Shown: positions 5,254 through 16,690 of the stretch, piece by piece
Layout: each line of letters starts with the position of its first letter
Position numbering within the stretch: position 1 is the stretch's first letter
IMG/VR virus record: IMGVR_UViG_3300046519_000254
Location: 1-20,590 of that record
Reading direction: 5' to 3' (one strand)
Origin: a virus
DNA length: 20,590 nt
Program-made: the position numbers and the translations under genes
Notes under the pieces: generated by a model
What the model saw: only the letters and a program-made list of their open reading frames with translations
What the model was told of the DNA's origin: nothing
The model's database searches: none

Positions 5254-5907
5254 GTGTCTAACGTATTATTTCCAGAATTACCTGGTCTTGAGTGGGATCT
5301 TTCAAAAACCCCGATGTTTAATACCAAGATCATGACTTCAATTAGCGGCCGTGAACTCAGGGCTAGTTTTCAAGCTATGCCAAAATATGAAATTTCGCTC
5401 TCTTACGCTTTCTTACGGGAAAGTAAGGGGCGAAATGAACTTAAGCAATTGGAAGGCTTTTTCTTGGCTAGGAGGGGGGCTTTTGATTCATTCTTATTTA
5501 AGATGCCTCAAGATAATGAGTTTACTTGTAAGTATTTAAGTGATGGTTCTACAACCACTGTCCAGCTTTACAAGCAATTTTATGATACTCAAATGCCGCT
5601 TGGTAATACGCAAGCAGTATCTTCAGCCTTAGTAAATTTAAATATGTGGAATCAGACCACTACTAAGAATATGTGGAGTGCAACTACATCAAAAAATATG
5701 TGGAGTTCTACAACTGCACAAATCTCTTCGGATGGTAAGCATATTCTTTCGCAACCAATTGAAGCGGGTATTGAATATCAAGTGAATGGTGTTTTTTATT
5801 ACCGTTGCCGATTCAAAGGCGATGATCAGGAATATGTGAATTTTATGAACAACCTATGGAAAGCACAAAAAGTTGAGTTCATTGGTTCATTGGGAAATAA
5901 GATATGA
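5254..5907 (+). CDS. DUF2460 family tail protein (distal-tail region)
   Basis: A 217-residue protein starting at GTG 5254, ten bases after the tape measure stop, with AAGGGGGTG as ribosome binding site. The N-terminus (FPELPGLEWDLSKTPMFNT, then SGRELRASFQ and a LEGFFLARRGAFDSFLF segment) is typical of the DUF2460/TIGR02217 family, which follows the tape measure gene in many siphophages and gene transfer agents and belongs to the distal tail/baseplate. Residues 130-156 contain three consecutive copies of a 9-residue unit NMW(N/S)xTT(T/S/A)(K/Q), an unusual insertion. The stop overlaps the next start (ATGA), implying translational coupling. Confidence 0.85.
   Translation: MSNVLFPELPGLEWDLSKTPMFNTKIMTSISGRELRASFQAMPKYEISLSYAFLRESKGRNELKQLEGFFLARRGAFDSFLFKMPQDNEFTCKYLSDGSTTTVQLYKQFYDTQMPLGNTQAVSSALVNLNMWNQTTTKNMWSATTSKNMWSSTTAQISSDGKHILSQPIEAGIEYQVNGVFYYRCRFKGDDQEYVNFMNNLWKAQKVEFIGSLGNKI
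5641..5721 (+). repeat. Three 27-bp in-frame tandem repeats in the DUF2460 gene
   Basis: Units start at 5641, 5668 and 5695. Each begins AATATGTGGA and encodes a nine-residue unit: NMWNQTTTK, NMWSATTSK and NMWSSTTAQ. The first ten bases are identical in all three and the rest diverges, so it is an old duplication or one under selection. Confidence 0.85.
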
Positions 5908-6752
5908 GACAAGCCTCGCCAAAACTAATTGCTTTGCTGGATGCTGAACAGTTCATTATGGCTGATTTGTATACCATTACAACGATTCAAGGCATTGAGT
6001 ACCGCTATACCAGCTATGACGTCAATTTGACCGTTAGTGGTAAGGAGTTTCGTTCTGATGGACCAAATATAAGCCGTGATGGTGTCAGCCTTTCGCTAGG
6101 TATCGAAGTCGATAATCTATCCATCACAATTGAAACATCTGAGAATTCCAAATTCGGGGATATACCTGTTGTTCAGGCTTTTCATAATGGCGTTTTAGAT
6201 GGATCCCGATTTAAATTAGAACGTATATTCATGGATGAGAATACCCCGACTGATACTAGTGCGGGCACAATTGTATTGTTTGAAGGGCGGATTATTGAGC
6301 CTCAGTTTGATCGATATGTAATTAATGCAAGTGTAGTTTCAGATGTGGACAATCTCAAACTTCAAATGCCTAGAAATCTTTATCAGCCTAGCTGTTTGAA
6401 TACACTGTTTGATGGTGCTTGCGGTTTATCAAGAGATAATTTTTCTGTAACTATCTCAGTGCAAGCAGGTAGTACTGCTAATCGTATTTTGTGCAATTTA
6501 AGCCAGCCTCAAGGGTGGTTTACACAAGGTGTTGTGGAGTTCGTCAATACAGGAATCAAACGAACAGTAAGGTTACATGAGTCAGGCGCGCTGTTATTAA
6601 CATTACCGCTCCTTGAAGTGCCCACTGTAGGGCAAACAATTAAAGTTTATTCTGGGTGCGATAAACGTCTAGAAACTTGTGAGAACCGTTTTAATAACCG
6701 TGTCAGATTCCGCGGTTCACCATTCGTACCAATTCCTGAAACGTCCGTCTAA
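5904..6752 (+). CDS. DUF2163/BR0599 tail tip protein, lambda gpL-like with iron-sulfur cysteine pattern
   Basis: A 282-residue protein. The N-terminal part (about 1-160) is DUF2163-like and the C-terminal part matches the BR0599 domain ending in YSGCDKRLETCENRFNN and FRGSPFVPIP. Four cysteines stand as two pairs: C164-x8-C173 and C252-x6-C259. Proteins related to lambda gpL are known to bind an iron-sulfur cluster through four conserved cysteines at the tail tip, and this arrangement fits; a fifth cysteine, C197, lies outside the pairs. The protein should join the distal tail/hub complex beside the DUF2460 protein. The start overlaps the preceding stop. A terminator follows, separating it from the tail fibre gene. 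Confidence 0.87.
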   Translation: MRQASPKLIALLDAEQFIMADLYTITTIQGIEYRYTSYDVNLTVSGKEFRSDGPNISRDGVSLSLGIEVDNLSITIETSENSKFGDIPVVQAFHNGVLDGSRFKLERIFMDENTPTDTSAGTIVLFEGRIIEPQFDRYVINASVVSDVDNLKLQMPRNLYQPSCLNTLFDGACGLSRDNFSVTISVQAGSTANRILCNLSQPQGWFTQGVVEFVNTGIKRTVRLHESGALLLTLPLLEVPTVGQTIKVYSGCDKRLETCENRFNNRVRFRGSPFVPIPETSV

Positions 6753-6811: not shown

Positions 6812-9130
6812 ATGGCTATTCCTAACAAAGATTCCTTTATTGGCCCTGCAGTTACTGAAGCTCTATTTAAAACCAATCTTGGGTTATTAATTGATTTCTT
6901 AAAATCGATTGAAGCTCAAAGCCCTTCTTTTTCTTCAACCTCATTGTTAAGGGCCTCTCGACCAGTTGAGAATACTAGCTATGCTAAAGCTTTGGATACT
7001 GGGAAAGTTTGGCGCTGGGATAAACCTGTAGGTTCAGCAGACGGTGATTATTGGACAGTTACCACTATAAGTGATTTAGATCGAGCTATTGCTTATGCAG
7101 ATCAGAAGGCTATCGAGGTGGATGAGAATTTTGAAGCTATTTTAGTTAATGAAATGCTTCCTTATATTGATAATGCAGACGATATAGTTGAGGCAAATGT
7201 TAAAAATTATGCTGATTCAAACGCTAACTTTAAATCAAAAGCATTAACTGCATCCGATAACCTAGATACCTTTAATATTGAAGGAACTTATACAGCATTA
7301 AATAGTGCTATTGCTGATTTGTCCCGTAACTATCCAGTTAAGGAAGCTGGGAGTTTAAAAGTTTTTAAGCATGGAATTAATAACACCCTTCAACATGAAT
7401 ACTTAACATTAACTGGGAAGTTATTCTCAAGATCTTTCATTACCAGTTGGTCAGATTGGATACAGCAAGCAAGTCTTCCAGAGTTAAATTCCGCTAAGTC
7501 TGACATCTTGAATGTTTCGTTAGTGAATCGTGGATTTGTTTTTGGTTCTGCTATTACAACTTTGACAGATAGTGGAACCTACTCTGTATCAGATATGACC
7601 GATTTCCCGTCAGATTTTCCTGCAACATATGGAGTTTTAAAGCGTTTTAAGTTTAGTTCTTATGCCTATTGGGAGCTAAGCACTACATCACGACCCGATA
7701 TCGTCTGGCAAAAAGTGGGTGTGGCCGCGTGGCGTAAAATCAGTATTGAAGATGCTTTAGCACCGTTTGCAAGTAAAGATACTCTTACACTGAATCGTGA
7801 CAAGCTTTACCCTATGCTTGCTTTGACCCGTGCAACTGTAGCCGCTAATACGAATGCAGCAGCATTAGAGAAGCATATTCTTGACGTTAAGGTGAATGGA
7901 GCAAATCCAGACTGTTTTTACAGAATTTCATATTTTGGGAATAATTCAACTCTTGCTGTTGAGGCAAATAAATTTGGCTGGATTTTGCAAGAAATTTCGA
8001 AAGTAGGATTTGCAGAGACTGGTGGAACTATCAAAGCATTGACAGCATCAGCAACAACAAAATACGAAATCGTTCCAAACACTGGCATTGTTCAATTCAC
8101 TTTGCAATCTACTGTAGACGCGAGTATTTCATTTGATTTTACAGTTGATACAACTGGTTTTGATACTACTGTTCTTTATTCTCATTCTGTCTCAACCGCT
8201 CAGGCGTGGGGGCATATTATCGACCCTATTAAATATGCTTTGAAGCAAGGTGTTGATGTGGCCGTGATTGATGAGAAGATTGCGACCAACAATAAGCAAA
8301 TAGAAGCTGTGCCAGTTTCACCAACACTTACCGCAACCTCTGCGGGATTAGTCTCAATAGACTTATCTGGAAATGCTAACTATTCAGGGCTTTTATTCTC
8401 AAAGTCTATTAGCACTTCAATTGCTCCAGCTTCAGTTACGAAAGTTATGTCTGTCATTGTGGCTTTAGAGTCTGGCATGACTCTAAATACTTTATTGACT
8501 GTAGCAGCTGGAGATATTGCAACAGGCAGCGGAAATAATTTACTTGAAGGGGATCAAATCACTTTGCTTGATGCTCTTTTTAATATGATGCTTCCTTCAA
8601 GTAATACTTCGGCAAATCTGGTCGCTCGAAGTGTTGGGGCATTTTTAGGCGGTGACACAGCAACATTCATTTCAAGAATGAACAGTAAAGCTGCTGATCT
8701 AGGTATGACCGGCACAACCTTTAAAAATCCATCTGGTTTAGCCGCAAGCGGTCATGCTTCAACGGTAAGTGATTTACTTAAGCTTGGCGTATATGCCAGC
8801 AAGAACGCATCAATGCTTTCGATTTGGGGGCAGTTTAATCACACGATTAGCATTCAAGGTAGTAACCCAAGAAGCATTGTTATCGACAGTTCTGTAGATC
8901 CGGTTGTGAGTGGTGAGCCTTGGGCGATAGGAGGTAAGACTGGAACATTAGCACCGTCAATCTATAACATGCTTTTATTTGTCCGGCTTAGAAATGGTTT
9001 TACTGGTGTTGCTGTCACTGTAGGCTCATCATCCGATACAGATAGATATAGCGATGTAAAATCTATGGTTGAGTATGCAAGAAATGCTTTTGCCTATCCC
9101 GCACCCCCGCAAATTGTTTTGAAGAATTAA
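6812..9130 (+). CDS. Tail fibre/spike with pyocin-knob-like repeats and C-terminal D-Ala-D-Ala-peptidase-like domain
   Basis: A 772-residue protein. Residues about 1-130 look like a tail-attachment part. Two knob-like modules follow, near 140-220 (LDTFNIEGTYTALNSAIADL ... SWSDWIQ) and 245-305 (GTYSVSDMTDFPSDFPATYG ... WRKIS). A beta-rich region leads to a C-terminal domain (about 505-765) with all three motifs of serine DD-peptidases: S541-V-T-K544, S596-S-N598 and K709-T-G711. The S-to-KTG distance (168 residues) is close to that in family S11 enzymes such as PBP5. No signal peptide is present, as expected for a virion protein made in the cytoplasm. It may act on peptidoglycan or on an acylated surface polymer. 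Terminators on both sides suggest an exchangeable cassette. Confidence 0.85.
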   Translation: MAIPNKDSFIGPAVTEALFKTNLGLLIDFLKSIEAQSPSFSSTSLLRASRPVENTSYAKALDTGKVWRWDKPVGSADGDYWTVTTISDLDRAIAYADQKAIEVDENFEAILVNEMLPYIDNADDIVEANVKNYADSNANFKSKALTASDNLDTFNIEGTYTALNSAIADLSRNYPVKEAGSLKVFKHGINNTLQHEYLTLTGKLFSRSFITSWSDWIQQASLPELNSAKSDILNVSLVNRGFVFGSAITTLTDSGTYSVSDMTDFPSDFPATYGVLKRFKFSSYAYWELSTTSRPDIVWQKVGVAAWRKISIEDALAPFASKDTLTLNRDKLYPMLALTRATVAANTNAAALEKHILDVKVNGANPDCFYRISYFGNNSTLAVEANKFGWILQEISKVGFAETGGTIKALTASATTKYEIVPNTGIVQFTLQSTVDASISFDFTVDTTGFDTTVLYSHSVSTAQAWGHIIDPIKYALKQGVDVAVIDEKIATNNKQIEAVPVSPTLTATSAGLVSIDLSGNANYSGLLFSKSISTSIAPASVTKVMSVIVALESGMTLNTLLTVAAGDIATGSGNNLLEGDQITLLDALFNMMLPSSNTSANLVARSVGAFLGGDTATFISRMNSKAADLGMTGTTFKNPSGLAASGHASTVSDLLKLGVYASKNASMLSIWGQFNHTISIQGSNPRSIVIDSSVDPVVSGEPWAIGGKTGTLAPSIYNMLLFVRLRNGFTGVAVTVGSSSDTDRYSDVKSMVEYARNAFAYPAPPQIVLKN

Positions 9131-9169: not shown

Positions 9170-9595
9170 ATGAGTACTGGACAACAAGCCGTAGATGAGG
9201 CGTTAACTTGGCTTGGTACACCGTATCATCACCAAGGGCGTGTAAAAGGTGTGGGGGTAGATTGCGGTACTTTGATTTGTGAGGTCTACGAGAAAGTAGG
9301 ACTCATGGACTATTTAGATCCACGGCCATATCCACCTGATTGGCACCTGCACCAGATGGAGCAACGTTATTTAGAGCTCATTTTAGGGGTGTGTGATCCA
9401 GTAGAAGGACCACCTCAAGCGGGTGATATTGTTTTATATAATTTCGGCAAATGCATTAGTCATGGTGCAATTGTCATCGAATGGCCGCAGGTTATTCACA
9501 GTTATCTCCATCAGGGAGTAATTATCCAAGATGGTACCAAAGGAAGTTTAGCCCGCCGTATAGCGGGCTTTTATCGTATGAAGAGGCTGAAATAA
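9170..9595 (+). CDS. NlpC/P60 family tail peptidase (gpK-like)
   Basis: A 141-residue protein with the NlpC/P60 cysteine-peptidase signature: the nucleophile in VDCGTLI (C32), a histidine in ISHGAIV (H98) and a further polar residue H110 in QVIHSY. The N-terminus ALTWLGTPYHHQGRVKGVGVD is typical of the phage TIGR02219-like branch. In lambda-like phages the gpK protein acts at the tail tip and can cut peptide cross-links in the cell wall during DNA entry or assembly. GGAG at 9161-9164 serves as ribosome binding site. Its stop overlaps the next start by one base (TAATG), so it is coupled to the hub gene. Confidence 0.9.
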   Translation: MSTGQQAVDEALTWLGTPYHHQGRVKGVGVDCGTLICEVYEKVGLMDYLDPRPYPPDWHLHQMEQRYLELILGVCDPVEGPPQAGDIVLYNFGKCISHGAIVIEWPQVIHSYLHQGVIIQDGTKGSLARRIAGFYRMKRLK

Positions 9596-12084
9596 TGGGT
9601 GGATTATTTGGTGGTACCACGATCAGTACAACGGATACCCGTATTAATTCTATGCGTATTCAACAGTCTGCTTATGGTTTATGTCAGCCATTGCTGTACG
9701 GTAAAACCCGCGTAGCTGCGAATATGTTTTGGTATGGTGATTTCTTGGCAACTCCACATACAACCGTTACTAAATCAGGGGGGAAAGGTGGCGGCAGTAA
9801 AACTAGCAATACCACATTTAGTTATAGTGCTTCGCTCATGCTCGGTTTATGTGAGAACCAGATTAAAAAGATCGGGCTAATCTGGGTGGATAAAGAGCAA
9901 TATGTACCTAAGCAAGAAGGATCTATTACTTTAGATCCAATCGACCAGTTAAAGTTTGAATTATATGATGGGAATAATAACCCACCGTGGGGTTGGCTAG
10001 TTTCAAAGCATCCGGATCAGGCAATTAACTACCCATATTTGGGATATGTTGCGTGTGCTAATTATGAGATGGGAAATAGTGCCAGTCTTTCAAATCATAA
10101 CTTTGAGGTGATTAGCACGATTACATTATCAGAAACTATTGACGATGCTAATCCAGCAGATGTGATTGAAGACTTTATTACGCATCCTCGCTATGGGGCT
10201 GCCCCTGATTTAAATATGGCAGATTTATCAGAATTTCGTACTTATTGTCGAGCGGCCAATCTATTGATTAGCCCAGCCTTTACTGAGCAACGTGCGGCAT
10301 ACGAGACGATTAACGAAATTGTCGAATCTGTAAACTGTGCGGTGGTACCAAGCCCTGACGGGTTAAAAATTAAATCCTTTGGTGATTCTGCACTAACAGG
10401 TAACGGCGTTACTTTTACGCCGAATCTTACGCCAGTTTATCACCTGACAGATGATGACTTTATTGACGATGAGGAACCGGTACAAGTACGCCGTAGCCGT
10501 GATACTGATGCTTATAATCATGTGCAGATTGAATACATCAATCGATATAACCAGTACAACACTGAAACAGTAGAAGCCAAGGATCAGGCAAATATTGAAA
10601 TGTACGGACTACGTACAGAAGATCCGGTAGAAAATCATTTCTTTTGTGAACCTAAAATAGCTCGTCATGCAGCGCAGCTTCGCTTACAGCGATTGCTTTA
10701 TGTACGTAATGAATATGAATTTCGCCTAGGCTGGAAGTATTGCCGGTTAGAGCCAATGGATATTGTAACTTTAACGGATCCTGTTTTAGGTTTAAATCAT
10801 TTCCTCGTGCGTATCACGCGTATTGAGGAAGATGAAGAAGGTATGTTGACAGTCACAGCCGAAGAATTAGCCGTAGGCTCAAGATCAGCAATTGAATATG
10901 ATTTACAGGCTTCTAATGGATATCAAGGCGGTAATGAAGAAGCTGGAAATGTAAATGCACCGGCAATATTTGAACCTCCGCTAGATCTCTCCAATGGTCA
11001 AAATCAAGTATGGATTGCTGTATCCGGTGGAATCAATTGGGGTGGCTGTAATGTATGGGTAAGCCTTGATGATACGACTTATGAAATGATTGGTACGGTA
11101 TACGGATCTGCGCGATATGGTCAGCTTGTCACAGATATTGATAGTGATGATACGGCGATGCAGGTAGAACTGAATACTTCAAGTCAGATCTTCAGCGGTA
11201 CATTAGAAGATGCTCAAGCCGATCAAACGCTTTGTAAAGTTGGTGATGAGTATTTTAATTATCAAGTGGCCACATTAAACGGAACAGGGTTATATACCTT
11301 AAGTGATGTATTGCGGGGGCGCTTTGCTGATGCTCAAAATCATAGTGCAGGTGAACCCTTTGTACGTTTAGATAAGGCAATATTCAATTATGGTTTTAAC
11401 CAAAATCTTATAGGTAAACAGATCTTTTTAAAGTTTACCAGTTTCAACGGATTGGAACGCAAAGAGCAAACTTTAGATGAGGTTACCGCCTATAGCTATA
11501 CTTTAACCGGTGGTCGTACTACCAGTGTAAAAGGCTTATCTTTGCAGTCACCGTTTATTGGTACATCTTTCAAGGTGCAGTGGCAGGTAACAACCGGTGC
11601 TACAGGTTACCGTGTTCAAGTATGGTCCGATGCGGTGAAAATACGTGAGGTAGATACTACTAATACAGATTTTAGTTATTCAGTTGAAGAAGCTATGCAA
11701 GATGGTATTGGTCGCTCGTACACAATTCGGGTGGCCAGTAAAAACGGTGAACAGATCAGTTCATTTGCTGAACTAAGTATTACTAATCCGGTGCCGCCGT
11801 TACTTATCAATATTTATACATCAGCAACGAGTGATTCTATAACTGTAAGCTGGTTACCTAGCGAAGTGCCGGACTTGAAAGATTATGCCGTTTGGCTCAG
11901 CAGTACCCCGAACTTTGACCCTACCACTACAAATCCAACTTGGACTGGTACAGAACTTACGAAAACGATTAAAGAGCTTCAAGCAACAACGCCTTATTAC
12001 ATCCGTGTTGCTGCACGTGATGTATGGAAAAATACCGACTGGAATTATTCTAATCAGATTACTCAAAGTACTTCTGAAGCATAA
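9595..12084 (+). CDS. gpJ-like central tail hub/fibre protein with C-terminal FN3 domains
   Basis: ATG at 9595 gives 829 residues; the open frame begins 114 bases earlier inside the peptidase gene, but the TAATG junction and MGGLFGGTT start are the natural choice. The N-terminus is the glycine-rich opening typical of phage tip attachment proteins. The middle (about 200-450, with DVIEDFITHPRYGA and later LGWKYCRLEPMDIVTLTDP) matches the phage-tail_3 hub family. Two fibronectin type III-like domains follow at about 646-730 and 733-825. This protein forms the central baseplate hub and tip fibre and is a likely receptor-contact determinant together with the preceding fibre. The segment SGGKGGGSKTSNTT is a flexible loop in the hub. 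Confidence 0.9.
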   Translation: MGGLFGGTTISTTDTRINSMRIQQSAYGLCQPLLYGKTRVAANMFWYGDFLATPHTTVTKSGGKGGGSKTSNTTFSYSASLMLGLCENQIKKIGLIWVDKEQYVPKQEGSITLDPIDQLKFELYDGNNNPPWGWLVSKHPDQAINYPYLGYVACANYEMGNSASLSNHNFEVISTITLSETIDDANPADVIEDFITHPRYGAAPDLNMADLSEFRTYCRAANLLISPAFTEQRAAYETINEIVESVNCAVVPSPDGLKIKSFGDSALTGNGVTFTPNLTPVYHLTDDDFIDDEEPVQVRRSRDTDAYNHVQIEYINRYNQYNTETVEAKDQANIEMYGLRTEDPVENHFFCEPKIARHAAQLRLQRLLYVRNEYEFRLGWKYCRLEPMDIVTLTDPVLGLNHFLVRITRIEEDEEGMLTVTAEELAVGSRSAIEYDLQASNGYQGGNEEAGNVNAPAIFEPPLDLSNGQNQVWIAVSGGINWGGCNVWVSLDDTTYEMIGTVYGSARYGQLVTDIDSDDTAMQVELNTSSQIFSGTLEDAQADQTLCKVGDEYFNYQVATLNGTGLYTLSDVLRGRFADAQNHSAGEPFVRLDKAIFNYGFNQNLIGKQIFLKFTSFNGLERKEQTLDEVTAYSYTLTGGRTTSVKGLSLQSPFIGTSFKVQWQVTTGATGYRVQVWSDAVKIREVDTTNTDFSYSVEEAMQDGIGRSYTIRVASKNGEQISSFAELSITNPVPPLLINIYTSATSDSITVSWLPSEVPDLKDYAVWLSSTPNFDPTTTNPTWTGTELTKTIKELQATTPYYIRVAARDVWKNTDWNYSNQITQSTSEA

Positions 12085-14125: not shown

Positions 14126-14145
14126 ATGAGCAAATATTTTCTCAT
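14126..14145. promoter_or_regulatory. Palindromic operator candidate 2, near-copy of candidate 1
   Basis: ATGAGCAAATATTTTCTCAT matches candidate 1 at 16 of 20 positions, including GAGCAAA and the following ATTT. Its centre is 41 bp from the first, about four helical turns, so a protein could occupy both on one DNA face. It overlaps the umuC stop codon at 14142-14144. Confidence 0.6.
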
Positions 14146-15440
14146 TTCGTTATTAGTAATAGTTCATCCCATTTAAAGGGGTTTCTACTCAATTTATCTC
14201 TACTCATTGACCAATTTCGATTTGGTATAAAGCAAGGACCCACACCAATTTTCTTCTTTCCAAATTTTGTATGTACGTTATCAAGCGCCTTCATCAATTG
14301 TTCTTTCTTTTCTATAATTTCAAAGTCGGTTAAGAGGTCATAGGTATGGCCAGATTTTGGTTCTAAGCCTGTCAGCACAACACCACATTTCTTATATTTA
14401 ATCCCTTCTTTATAGATATCGTTCAACATCCTTGTTGCAGCTCTAACAAAATCAACTGCGCAATCAGTCGGTTCTGAAAAAGAGCCTGTAATAGATTTAT
14501 TGTAAAACGGCACATTGGGGTCGAAAGGATTTGACTGTATAAAAGCAATCATACATCCGCATAAAAGTTCTTCATCCCTCAATCGCTTACAGGCATCTTG
14601 AGCATACATAGAGATAGCTTCTTTTAGATCCGTTAGTTCAGTTACGCGACCACCGAAGGATCGACTTGCAACTATTTGCTTTTTTGATGGGGGAGTGTGC
14701 TCGATCTCAATGCATGAGATGCCCTGTAATTCGTAGATGGTGCGAGCCATGACAATCGAAAATTGTCTTTGCATTTCTCGAGGTTCAGCACAAGCTAGAT
14801 CAAGCACCGTGTTAATTCCAATGCTTTGCAACTTTTTTGAGTGCTTACGACCAACGCCCCAAACTTCTGAAACATCAATTAATGAGAAATAATATTCTTT
14901 GTTGCACGGATCCATTGATACCAGATCGCAAACACTGTTAAAGCCGGGATTCTTTTTAGCAATGTGATTTGCAATCTTTGATTCTGTTTTACTTCTGCCG
15001 ATTCCGACACAGACAGGAAGGCCAAGCCATTTCCATATTTGCTGTCGCATTTGTTGCCCGACCTTTTCAAGATCGAAATTCTTTTCATAAGCAGAAAAGT
15101 CAACAAAACACTCATCGATAGAGTAGGGTTCAACTTCCTCTGCAGTTACGTACGAGCTCAGAATCTTATGAAAACGTCTCGACATTTCTGCATACATTGC
15201 ATAGTTGCTTGAAAGTACGATTACGTTATGTTTTTGCACTATGTCTTTAATTTGAAAAAGTGGTACACCCATTTTTATGTTTAGGTTTTTCGACTCATTG
15301 CTACGCGCCACGGCACACCCATCATTATTGCTGAGAACAATCACAGGCTTGTTGTTCAAACTTGGGTCAAAGACTCTCTCACATGAAACGTACATGTTAT
15401 TGACGTCAATCAAGAAAAAGACTTTATTCTCATGCTTCAT
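14142..15440 (-). CDS. umuC: UmuC, Y-family DNA polymerase V catalytic subunit
   Basis: A full-length 432-residue protein. Catalytic acidic residues are in place: D12 in [14 protein letters not shown] and D109-E110 in [11 protein letters not shown]. The palm/fingers/thumb region is followed by a helix-hairpin-helix stretch ([17 protein letters not shown]), the little-finger domain, and a C-terminal tail [20 protein letters not shown] typical of UmuC/DUF4113. It carries out error-prone translesion synthesis with processed UmuD. Its start overlaps the umuD stop (ATGA), as in other umuDC operons. The position corresponding to the beta-clamp peptide reads YDLLTDF, without the usual leading glutamine, so clamp binding may be weak or use another segment. 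Confidence 0.95.
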
Positions 15441-15931
15441 GATTTTCTTATCATTTTAATGATGCAGGTGACAACGCCCCAAATAATTAACTCTTGGCCC
15501 TCCATCAGATAAATATTTTTATAATCTGGATTTTCTGCTTTAAGCCATCGGCCTTTTTCATCGATCATTAGGCGCTTCACTGTGAAATCATTATCGATCA
15601 GTGCAACTACAATGTCTCCATGCTTTGCATCAAGGCTACGATCGACAATTAGTTCGTCATCAATATCTATACCAGCGTTGAGCATTGATAACGATGCAAC
15701 TTTGACAATAAACGTTGCCGTTTCATTTTTTATTAAATGCTCGTTCATATCGAGCGCTTTGTCTATGTAATCTTGTGCCGGGGAGGGAAAGCCTGCATTG
15801 ATCTTTTCCAATGCGTAAGGGATTAACATTTGAGTGGAAGGAATTATGAGCTTAATTGAGATAACATCAGCTAAAACAACACCTTGTAAGTATGGCTTTA
15901 TCTTAATAATGGACGGTACAATTTCGCTCAT
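15437..15931 (-). CDS. umuD: UmuD, self-cleaving polymerase V subunit
   Basis: A 164-residue LexA-like (S24) protein. The cleavage site is A46-G47 in [12 protein letters not shown]. The catalytic pair is S82 (ASLSMLNAG) and K119 (DNDFTVKRL). After RecA-stimulated cleavage, UmuD' would join UmuC. The N-terminal arm before the cleavage site is 46 residues, about 22 longer than in E. coli UmuD but shorter than expected for the repressor-type UmuDAb of Acinetobacter (about 200 residues in total), so it is more likely a polymerase subunit than a repressor. AGGGGA precedes the ATG at proper spacing. An SOS-type palindrome lies 14 bases upstream. Confidence 0.93.
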
Positions 15932-15944
15932 AGCATTCCCCTAA

Positions 15945-15967
15945 CTTGATTTTGTTACATAATCAAG
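15945..15967 (-). promoter_or_regulatory. UmuDAb-type SOS operator upstream of umuDC
   Basis: Perfect 7-bp arms CTTGATT (15945-15951) and AATCAAG (15961-15967) around a nine-base centre. On the - strand the centre begins ATGTAAC. This matches, from memory, the palindrome bound by UmuDAb in Acinetobacter (TTGA, ATGTAAC, TCAA). It lies 13 bases before the umuD ATG, so binding would block the promoter or early elongation. Confidence 0.75.
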
Positions 15968-16045
15968 ATGATATGCTAGAGCAAAGATGAAATTCAAATT
16001 TAAAAAGCTGTGGATAAACAAGTAGAAGTCAAAAGTTGACGTGCT

Positions 16046-16690
16046 TTACTCTGCGTTTGGTCGGAATTTCTTCAACTCAGATCGAGGTTGAGCGGTGAAC
16101 TCATCCAAAGGCATATCTAAGAAAAATTCTTTAGCTTCTTCATGTTTACAGTGCAGCCAGTCATCCCTTAGTTCTGGTGGGATAACAACAATAGAGCGCT
16201 TTTCATCAGTAGGAGCATGAAATTGCTTCATGAAAGGGTGGTGGTCAGAATTAATTGTGAGCATGCTCATAGATCTGATTTCTTCGCCGTTCACAACTGC
16301 ATATTCATAAATGCCGGCAATTGTAAAAGGCATTTCATCTTTTCGATAAATTCCCCACCATTCTGGCTTATTGTTTATGTACTTCGGTTCAAAAATTACA
16401 TCGGCAGGAATTAAGCAGAATTGATTTTTCTTCCAAGCATTACGGAAGCTAGGTTTTTCGTGAACTGTTTCAGTTCTTGCATTGTAAGTGTTATGAACTT
16501 TTTTTAGTTCTTTCACCCAAGGAGCAACTAATCCGAAACGTGCTAATCGCCATTCTAATTGTTCTTTTTTAGAGAATAAAAGGGGAGCTTCATAGTTAGG
16601 GTAAATATTTGATTTATATTCAAATGTTGGCTCAAACAGATCCAGTAAGTGAATTCTATTTTTTGCGATTGGTTCATAATTAGAACACAT
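16046..16690 (-). CDS. SRAP family protein (YedK/HMCES-type abasic-site shield)
   Basis: A 214-residue protein starting MCSNYEP, with the invariant Cys2 exposed after removal of Met1. Family residues are recognisable: N70 in YNARTET, E101 in ADVIFEPKY (usually followed by W, here P-K-Y) and H158 in KQFHAPTDEKRSIVV. SRAP proteins form a covalent link to abasic sites in single-stranded DNA and shield them from breakage. The gene is 114 bases upstream of umuD in the same direction, forming a DNA-damage tolerance cassette. GAGG precedes the start at suitable spacing. No SOS-type palindrome is seen in front of it, so it may be expressed separately from umuDC. Confidence 0.93.
   Translation of the reverse strand: MCSNYEPIAKNRIHLLDLFEPTFEYKSNIYPNYEAPLLFSKKEQLEWRLARFGLVAPWVKELKKVHNTYNARTETVHEKPSFRNAWKKNQFCLIPADVIFEPKYINNKPEWWGIYRKDEMPFTIAGIYEYAVVNGEEIRSMSMLTINSDHHPFMKQFHAPTDEKRSIVVIPPELRDDWLHCKHEEAKEFFLDMPLDEFTAQPRSELKKFRPNAE

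Follow-up and report, generated by a model that had tools for sequence, protein, structure and literature searches.

The window, by which we mean the whole stretch of 20,590 nucleotides of an IMG/VR viral record analysed here, is most similar to Acinetobacter phages, which account for 43 of the 44 matching records in a megablast search. Its tail cassette lies on the plus strand. A DUF2460 distal tail/baseplate protein resembling RcGTA g12 is encoded at 5254–5907 (+; PF09343, E 4e-30). It is followed at 5904–6752 (+) by a baseplate hub of the phiJL001 Gp84-N/BR0599 (DUF2163) type, similar to RcGTA g13 or lambda gpL (PF09931, E 2e-32; PF09356, E 7e-22). The gene under study, at 6812–9130 (+), codes for a tail fibre of 772 amino acids, as judged from its reading frame, its N-terminal similarity and the synteny of the tail cassette. 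Downstream are an NlpC/P60 tail peptidase similar to RcGTA g14 (9170–9595, +; PF00877, E 3e-7; PHROG tail category) and a Phage-tail_3/Rcc01698-like tail tip protein similar to g15 (9481–12084, +; PF13550, E 4e-32; PF23666, E 4e-9), and then phrog_1024 and a GH108 endolysin. The order TMP, DUF2460, hub, fibre, NlpC/P60, Phage-tail_3, phrog_1024 and GH108 is conserved in five relatives (L002–L006). We take it to be the order of RcGTA genes 12, 13, 14 and 15, with the fibre inserted between the g13-like and the g14-like gene. A preliminary description of this DNA had placed the fibre gene between gpL-like and NlpC/P60 genes, and the PF09931/PF09356 hub before it and the PF00877 gene after it agree with this placement.

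Three further observations concern the surroundings of the fibre gene. The Phage-tail_3 ORF at 9481–12084 overlaps the NlpC/P60 gene by 115 bases, and from its homologues the true start is probably later, nearer 9590. At 1393–2368, in the interval from the tail chaperone region to the tape measure gene, the window carries two apparent extra genes. One is lipoprotein-like, with a signal-like start and a Cys, the other is a bPH_2 membrane-like protein, and both are possible superinfection-exclusion or conversion genes. On the minus strand, 14142–16690 holds genes for a UmuC-like polymerase, a UmuD-like S24 peptidase and SRAP, which suggests SOS-linked functions in the prophage.

The fibre is built from an N-terminal attachment module, stalk and knob-like modules and a C-terminal tip. 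Residues 1–99 (6812–7108, +) form the N-terminal module with a presumed role in tail attachment. They are 65% identical to the fibre N-terminus of the Acinetobacter phages 5W and vB_AbaSI_5, whose fibres carry another enzyme at their end. The stalk and middle modules comprise about residues 137–506 (7220–8329, +) and gave no match in a Pfam search. Residues 303–541 (window 7720–8432) are 28% identical to Pseudomonas phage Zuri gp89 (E 8e-7). In Zuri gp89 itself (L023, 4933–8502), a module resembling this stalk is repeated several times. The fibre N-terminus reads MAIPNKDSFIGPAVTEALFK, in which we see no basic plus hydrophobic signal; this was judged by reading and without a predictor. With 506 fibre residues upstream of the C-terminal domain, the export signal that marks a cellular low-molecular-mass PBP is missing.

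The tip comprises residues 507–772 (8330–9127, +) and belongs to the peptidase S11 family of DD-peptidases with a penicillin-binding fold, enzymes of a type that serves bacteria in trimming the cell wall and is inhibited by penicillin. Pfam profile PF00768 covers residues 526–667 with 68.6 bits (E 7.2e-19) at a gathering score of 27.6. In a phmmer search of the PDB, B. subtilis DacB (3mfd) is matched over residues 21–242 of the 266-residue domain (E 1.1e-20) and the Streptomyces K15 DD-transpeptidase along the whole domain (E 5.7e-17). A profile of the fibre-tip clade described below finds 36 PDB chains, nearly all of them annotated as S11 DD-peptidases. Among phage families, phrog_5304, annotated 'peptidase', matches the tip with E 4e-20. 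The nearest NCBIfam model is PRK11669, D-alanyl-D-alanine endopeptidase, with E 3.6e-15 and under the equivalog cut-off; the tip falls well short of the equivalog cut-offs that NCBIfam sets for specific cellular enzymes.

S11 enzymes are acylated at a Ser for which a Lys serves as base, and their SxN and KTG motifs shape the pocket. Translation of 6812–9130 places all three motifs in the tip in canonical order and spacing. Motif 1, S541-V-T-K544 (8432–8443, +), would provide nucleophile and general base. Motif 2 is S596-S-N598 (8597–8605, +), part of an 'LPSSN' sequence common to most of the fibre-tip clade. Motif 3 is K709-T-G711 (8936–8944, +), reading KTGT from residue 709; every member of the clade has KTG or KSG here. 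S541 is separated from K709 by 168 residues. The preliminary description had given these motifs and this spacing, and its limits for the domain, 8330–9115, are off by no more than a few codons; domain and ORF reach 9127 plus the stop codon.

An AlphaFold2 model of the domain, built from an alignment with 25 diverse rows, has a mean pLDDT of 89.7 and a pTM of 0.89. A model built from seven near-identical sequences only reached a pLDDT of 39.8 and was discarded. The accepted model superimposes end to end on the Streptomyces K15 DD-transpeptidase (Z 34.6, rmsd 1.9, 245 residues) and on 3mfd (Z 34.3). It also aligns to DacB, PBP5 and PBP6 structures of B. subtilis, E. coli and P. aeruginosa, with a best Foldseek E of 9e-18. 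The three motifs are kept in all six close relatives, which are 87–94% identical. The dN/dS of the domain is 0.06–0.11 against L002–L007, which indicates strong purifying selection, and that of the stalk is 0.09 (against L004). Because the motifs are invariant in the relatives and dN/dS is this low, we conclude that the domain is maintained. Sequence matches and the confident model together rule out a chance occurrence of the motifs and establish the last ~266 residues of the fibre as a complete peptidase S11 domain with all catalytic motifs, for which activity is inferred. The claim of a complete serine DD-peptidase-type domain at a virion fibre tip is thereby supported. Neither of two outcomes that would have spoken against it, a fold without the serine beta-lactamase-like core or a loss of motifs in close relatives, occurred.

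The slot between the DUF2163-type hub and the NlpC/P60 gene is occupied by different proteins in related phages. In phage 5W, which shares the N-terminal module with the window, the fibre ends in a SASA acetylesterase domain. In a contig filed as Acinetobacter phage MD-2021a, the slot holds a protein with a CotH domain. The enzyme-like tip domains of both differ from the S11 domain of the window. The CotH-kinase-like protein in the fibre slot of a related Acinetobacter prophage contig (L073, 6427–8250) is followed by a DUF285 repeat protein. Three of the close relatives (L003, L005 and L006) have longer stalks, with extra module copies and additional modules ahead of the same S11 tip. The Acinetobacter-type prophage L007 (57–6801) has the same stalk and tip, with an S11 domain 87% identical, and a different N-terminus. 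Its fibre gene lies behind Baseplate_J and E217-type hub genes of a contractile-type tail instead of GTA-type genes. As L007 keeps stalk and tip on this other tail type with another N-terminus, we conclude that the tip has been exchanged between tails. The gene meets what is required of an enzyme-tipped fibre, namely a place in a tail or baseplate cassette on the same strand and a conserved N-terminal module joined to an exchangeable C-terminal enzyme.

These comparisons bear on whether the S11 gene could be a captured host wall enzyme, carried as cargo or for lysogenic conversion and unrelated to the virion. S11 enzymes are widespread in cells, and several S11 records filed as phage are in fact bacterial contigs (L039, L025 and L026). 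The domain of the window is fused in frame to a fibre whose N-terminal module is common to sister fibres, has no signal-like N-terminus, is part of the tail operon and groups apart from the cellular sequences in the tree. We consider such a capture highly improbable. By comparison of sequences, the S11 domain is a swappable fibre-tip module and not a host wall enzyme. The fibre identity and the virion role favoured in the preliminary description are thus supported, the virion role by inference. They rest on the position among GTA/lambda-like baseplate genes, the N-terminus shared with fibres that carry other enzymes, the in-frame fusion and the lack of a signal.

Among 50,697 phage records we find only five convincing cases of S11 proteins of the tail, namely Erythrobacter phages R6L and ZS04, Microcystis phage Mwe-JY26 and Staphylococcus phages UHP46 and ZCSS1. 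The remaining annotated matches and one unannotated match that we inspected lie in bacterial neighbourhoods; most faecal contigs were not examined individually. 'Bacteriophage sp.' matches from faecal samples were not counted as phage, and the one neighbourhood examined (L039) is a bacterial division cluster. The dacA matches filed under 'Escherichia phage' and 'Acinetobacter phage MD-2021a' were rejected for their bacterial gene neighbourhoods. MT835555 (L039), CAKLQF020000018 (L026) and ON470620 (L025) are filed as phages; the dac genes in them are ordinary and lie among bacterial chromosomal genes. For Erythrobacter R6L gp77, no virion evidence was found in the R6L paper. Targeted scans of IMG/VR added L035, L036, L043, L044, L046/L067, L047/L056, L048, L058, L070 and L071. 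Two scans of genome contigs for exact short peptides gave no match, a result that carries no weight as evidence of absence. Several of these S11 genes adjoin Dit/Tal, tape-measure or sheath genes. The gene of L046 lies between Sipho_tail and Prophage_tail genes, and that of L048 lies in a sheathed-tail cassette next to a Gp53-like fibre gene.

In part of this set the S11 domain is circularly permuted. The UHP46 tip aligns to the window domain in two collinear pieces whose order is swapped: residues 21–103 of the window domain match UHP46 348–430 (42%), and the KTG half aligns with the part of UHP46 that ends near residue 302 (29%). The permuted order thus has the KTG half first and the SxxK/SxN half last. 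L043, L046, L047, L058, L070 and L071 show the same swap, with the cut again placed after the SxN helix and ahead of the F-x-x-x-M-N helix that comes next. Pfam reveals the swap independently: the first part of the domain matches the S11 profile from about position 119 onward, and the last part matches the N-terminal portion of the Beta-lactamase2 profile. The permuted domain stands at a fibre C-terminus or directly after a fibre gene, as in UHP46/ZCSS1 (L042, 3596–4915), in L043 (9514–10488) and in the other five contigs. In L058 (1888–3693, −), a CBM_4_9-like segment, below Pfam's curated cut-off, lies between the two halves. Misassembly was considered as the cause of the permutation and rejected, given seven divergent sequences from independent records with the same order. 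The window domain has the canonical order and is related to the permuted clade.

For the tree, the canonical order of the permuted sequences was restored before alignment. The permuted sequences form one group (support 100/98). The window, L048, L020, L021, L063 and the permuted sequences also form one group (100/98), opposite six cellular S11 sequences (89/81). The tree has 26 rows and a midpoint root, and the direction of change and a phage-only lineage remain provisional. L063, which adjoins a flagellin gene, and the plasmid matches L020 and L021 are not clearly phage genes and served as tree rows only. From sequence data alone, an S11 clade in the fibres of Acinetobacter siphophages, a sheathed-tail phage and Gram-positive phages appears to be new. 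The same applies to a permuted sub-clade of apparently single origin, represented by Staphylococcus phages and by six or more contigs from metagenomes or prophages. No published description of the S11 fibre-tip clade or of its permuted branch was found in the open-licence literature, so that priority of others cannot be excluded. We put forward, at somewhat less than even odds, a broader proposal: Gram-negative and Gram-positive phages share a dedicated S11 fibre-tip lineage in which one permutation re-routed the join between stalk and enzyme. This lineage would be distinct from the cellular PBPs and the S12 enzymes of mycobacteriophages and would act on D-Ala ligands of the envelope in adsorption.

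Whether permuted or canonical, the members of the clade retain SxxK, SxN and K[TS]G, while two of the laminin-G-fused relatives deviate. These are tail S11 proteins in L036 (5863–8253), with KNG as third motif, and in Mwe-JY26 (L041, 3893–5467), with SGS as second motif. Judged from their changed motifs, some of these distant tail homologues may only bind. This tolerance would fit a tip that is a lectin-like receptor-binding module, with the penicillin-binding fold kept for recognition of stem peptide or D-Ala without turnover, and fibre tips in general usually bind receptors. Against such a purely binding role, no member of the Acinetobacter group departs from any of the three motifs, nearly every clade member, permuted tips included, has the full set, and purifying selection on the S11 domain is strong. 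We regard it as unlikely for the window.

In our preferred reading, to which we assign a probability of about 0.7, the phage is a temperate Acinetobacter siphophage and the gene encodes a structural fibre of its tail. The C-terminal tip of this fibre would be a serine hydrolase of the S11 penicillin-binding type, to all appearance functional, that acts in adsorption. Activity, substrate and presence in the virion are inferred. The fibre would project from the baseplate and display the S11 domains at its far end, as inferred from their C-terminal position and from the logic of the slot. During adsorption, Ser541, activated by Lys544, would attack a bond of the acyl-D-Ala type on the surface envelope of the cell, in a pocket lined by Ser596/Asn598 and Lys709-Thr-Gly. 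An acyl-enzyme would form and then be hydrolysed. The most likely target would be a stem peptide or cross-link of peptidoglycan, as for DacB and PBP7, and the main alternative a D-alanyl or other acyl group on capsule or LOS. By trimming or releasing surface ligands, the enzyme could allow the phage to settle and its tail, with its own NlpC/P60 peptidase, to pass through.

The choice of target is where the evidence divides. Peptidoglycan is favoured by every match. Against it, Gram-negative peptidoglycan lies beneath the outer membrane, where the reach of a fibre tip is not obvious, and the cassette encodes an NlpC/P60 peptidase in any case. The S11 fold could instead be redirected to ester- or amide-linked acyl groups, for example D-alanyl or acetyl, on a receptor polysaccharide, in the manner of SGNH esterase tips. 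Such a capsule or LOS target is favoured by the swap with the acetylesterase tip of 5W and by accessibility in a Gram-negative host, where a domain at the outer fibre end would meet capsule first. The fibre-tip clade is also separate from the cellular DD-peptidases, with a second motif that is mostly SSN and not SGN. A survey of receptor-binding enzymes in A. baumannii prophages found only SGNH-type esterases (PMC12115436). However, the sequence and structure matches are all to D-Ala-D-Ala peptidases and none to esterases, and there is no substrate evidence. The slot also takes a CotH domain and therefore does not single out esterases. We hold this redirection to be possible but doubtful. For the permuted tips of Gram-positive phages, stem peptides or D-alanyl-teichoic acid can plausibly be inferred as the target, since the wall of their hosts lies open to the phage.

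If the fibre tip is of the penicillin-binding type, beta-lactams or boronates could become probes of phage adsorption. Such a tip also points to D-Ala, stem peptide or an acyl group as the surface ligand, a kind of ligand not commonly attributed to fibre enzymes. With the permuted clade of single origin, a version of the penicillin-binding fold that was permuted in nature becomes available for study, and the clade shows how phages can change the way an enzyme is attached to its stalk.

Most enzymes known from fibre tips are glycosidases, lyases or SGNH esterases. The preliminary description had called a penicillin-binding fold unusual in this place. For the broad fold this needs qualifying, as a tail enzyme with a PBP fold is already known from mycobacteriophages; what is apparently undescribed is the S11 fibre-tip clade with its permuted branch. 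For Omega and Corndog, mass spectrometry detected tail proteins with a PBP-superfamily domain in the virion (PMC3706429, PMC4351075). Tweety gp19 had been noted as early as 2007 (PMC2884959). These mycobacteriophage proteins carry, like the window fibre, a domain of the serine beta-lactamase/PBP superfamily in a tail protein, but theirs is S12/PF00144 and that of the window S11/PF00768. Tweety gp19 and Firecracker gp60 match PF00144 (S12/class C) with E 1e-40 and 2e-38. The window fibre has no PF00144 match in Pfam, and BLASTP finds no significant similarity between Tweety gp19 and the window domain (E 1.3).

The cellular S11 DD-peptidases, such as B. subtilis DacB/PBP5*, the Streptomyces K15 DD-transpeptidase and E. 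coli PBP5, PBP6 and PBP7, share with the window domain the fold, the motifs and their spacing, the Pfam family and the structure over its full length. They are secreted or membrane-anchored, whereas the window domain is the C-terminal tip of a phage fibre without a signal. Their second motif is usually SGN, in contrast to SSN in the window tip, which belongs to a separate clade. Erythrobacter vB_EliS_R6L gp77, ZS04 gp37 and the 'D-alanyl-D-alanine carboxypeptidase' of Microcystis Mwe-JY26 resemble the window in having S11 in the tail region and no signal-like N-terminus. They differ in the laminin-G-like domain that follows S11, in a second motif of SGN (or SGS) and in their clade. The 'serine hydrolase' fibre of the Staphylococcus phages UHP46 and ZCSS1 (Sciuriunavirus) has an S11 tip that falls in the same LPSSN clade as the window domain. 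Its N-terminus is common to many Twort-like tail fibres, and its tip is circularly permuted, whereas that of the window is canonical.
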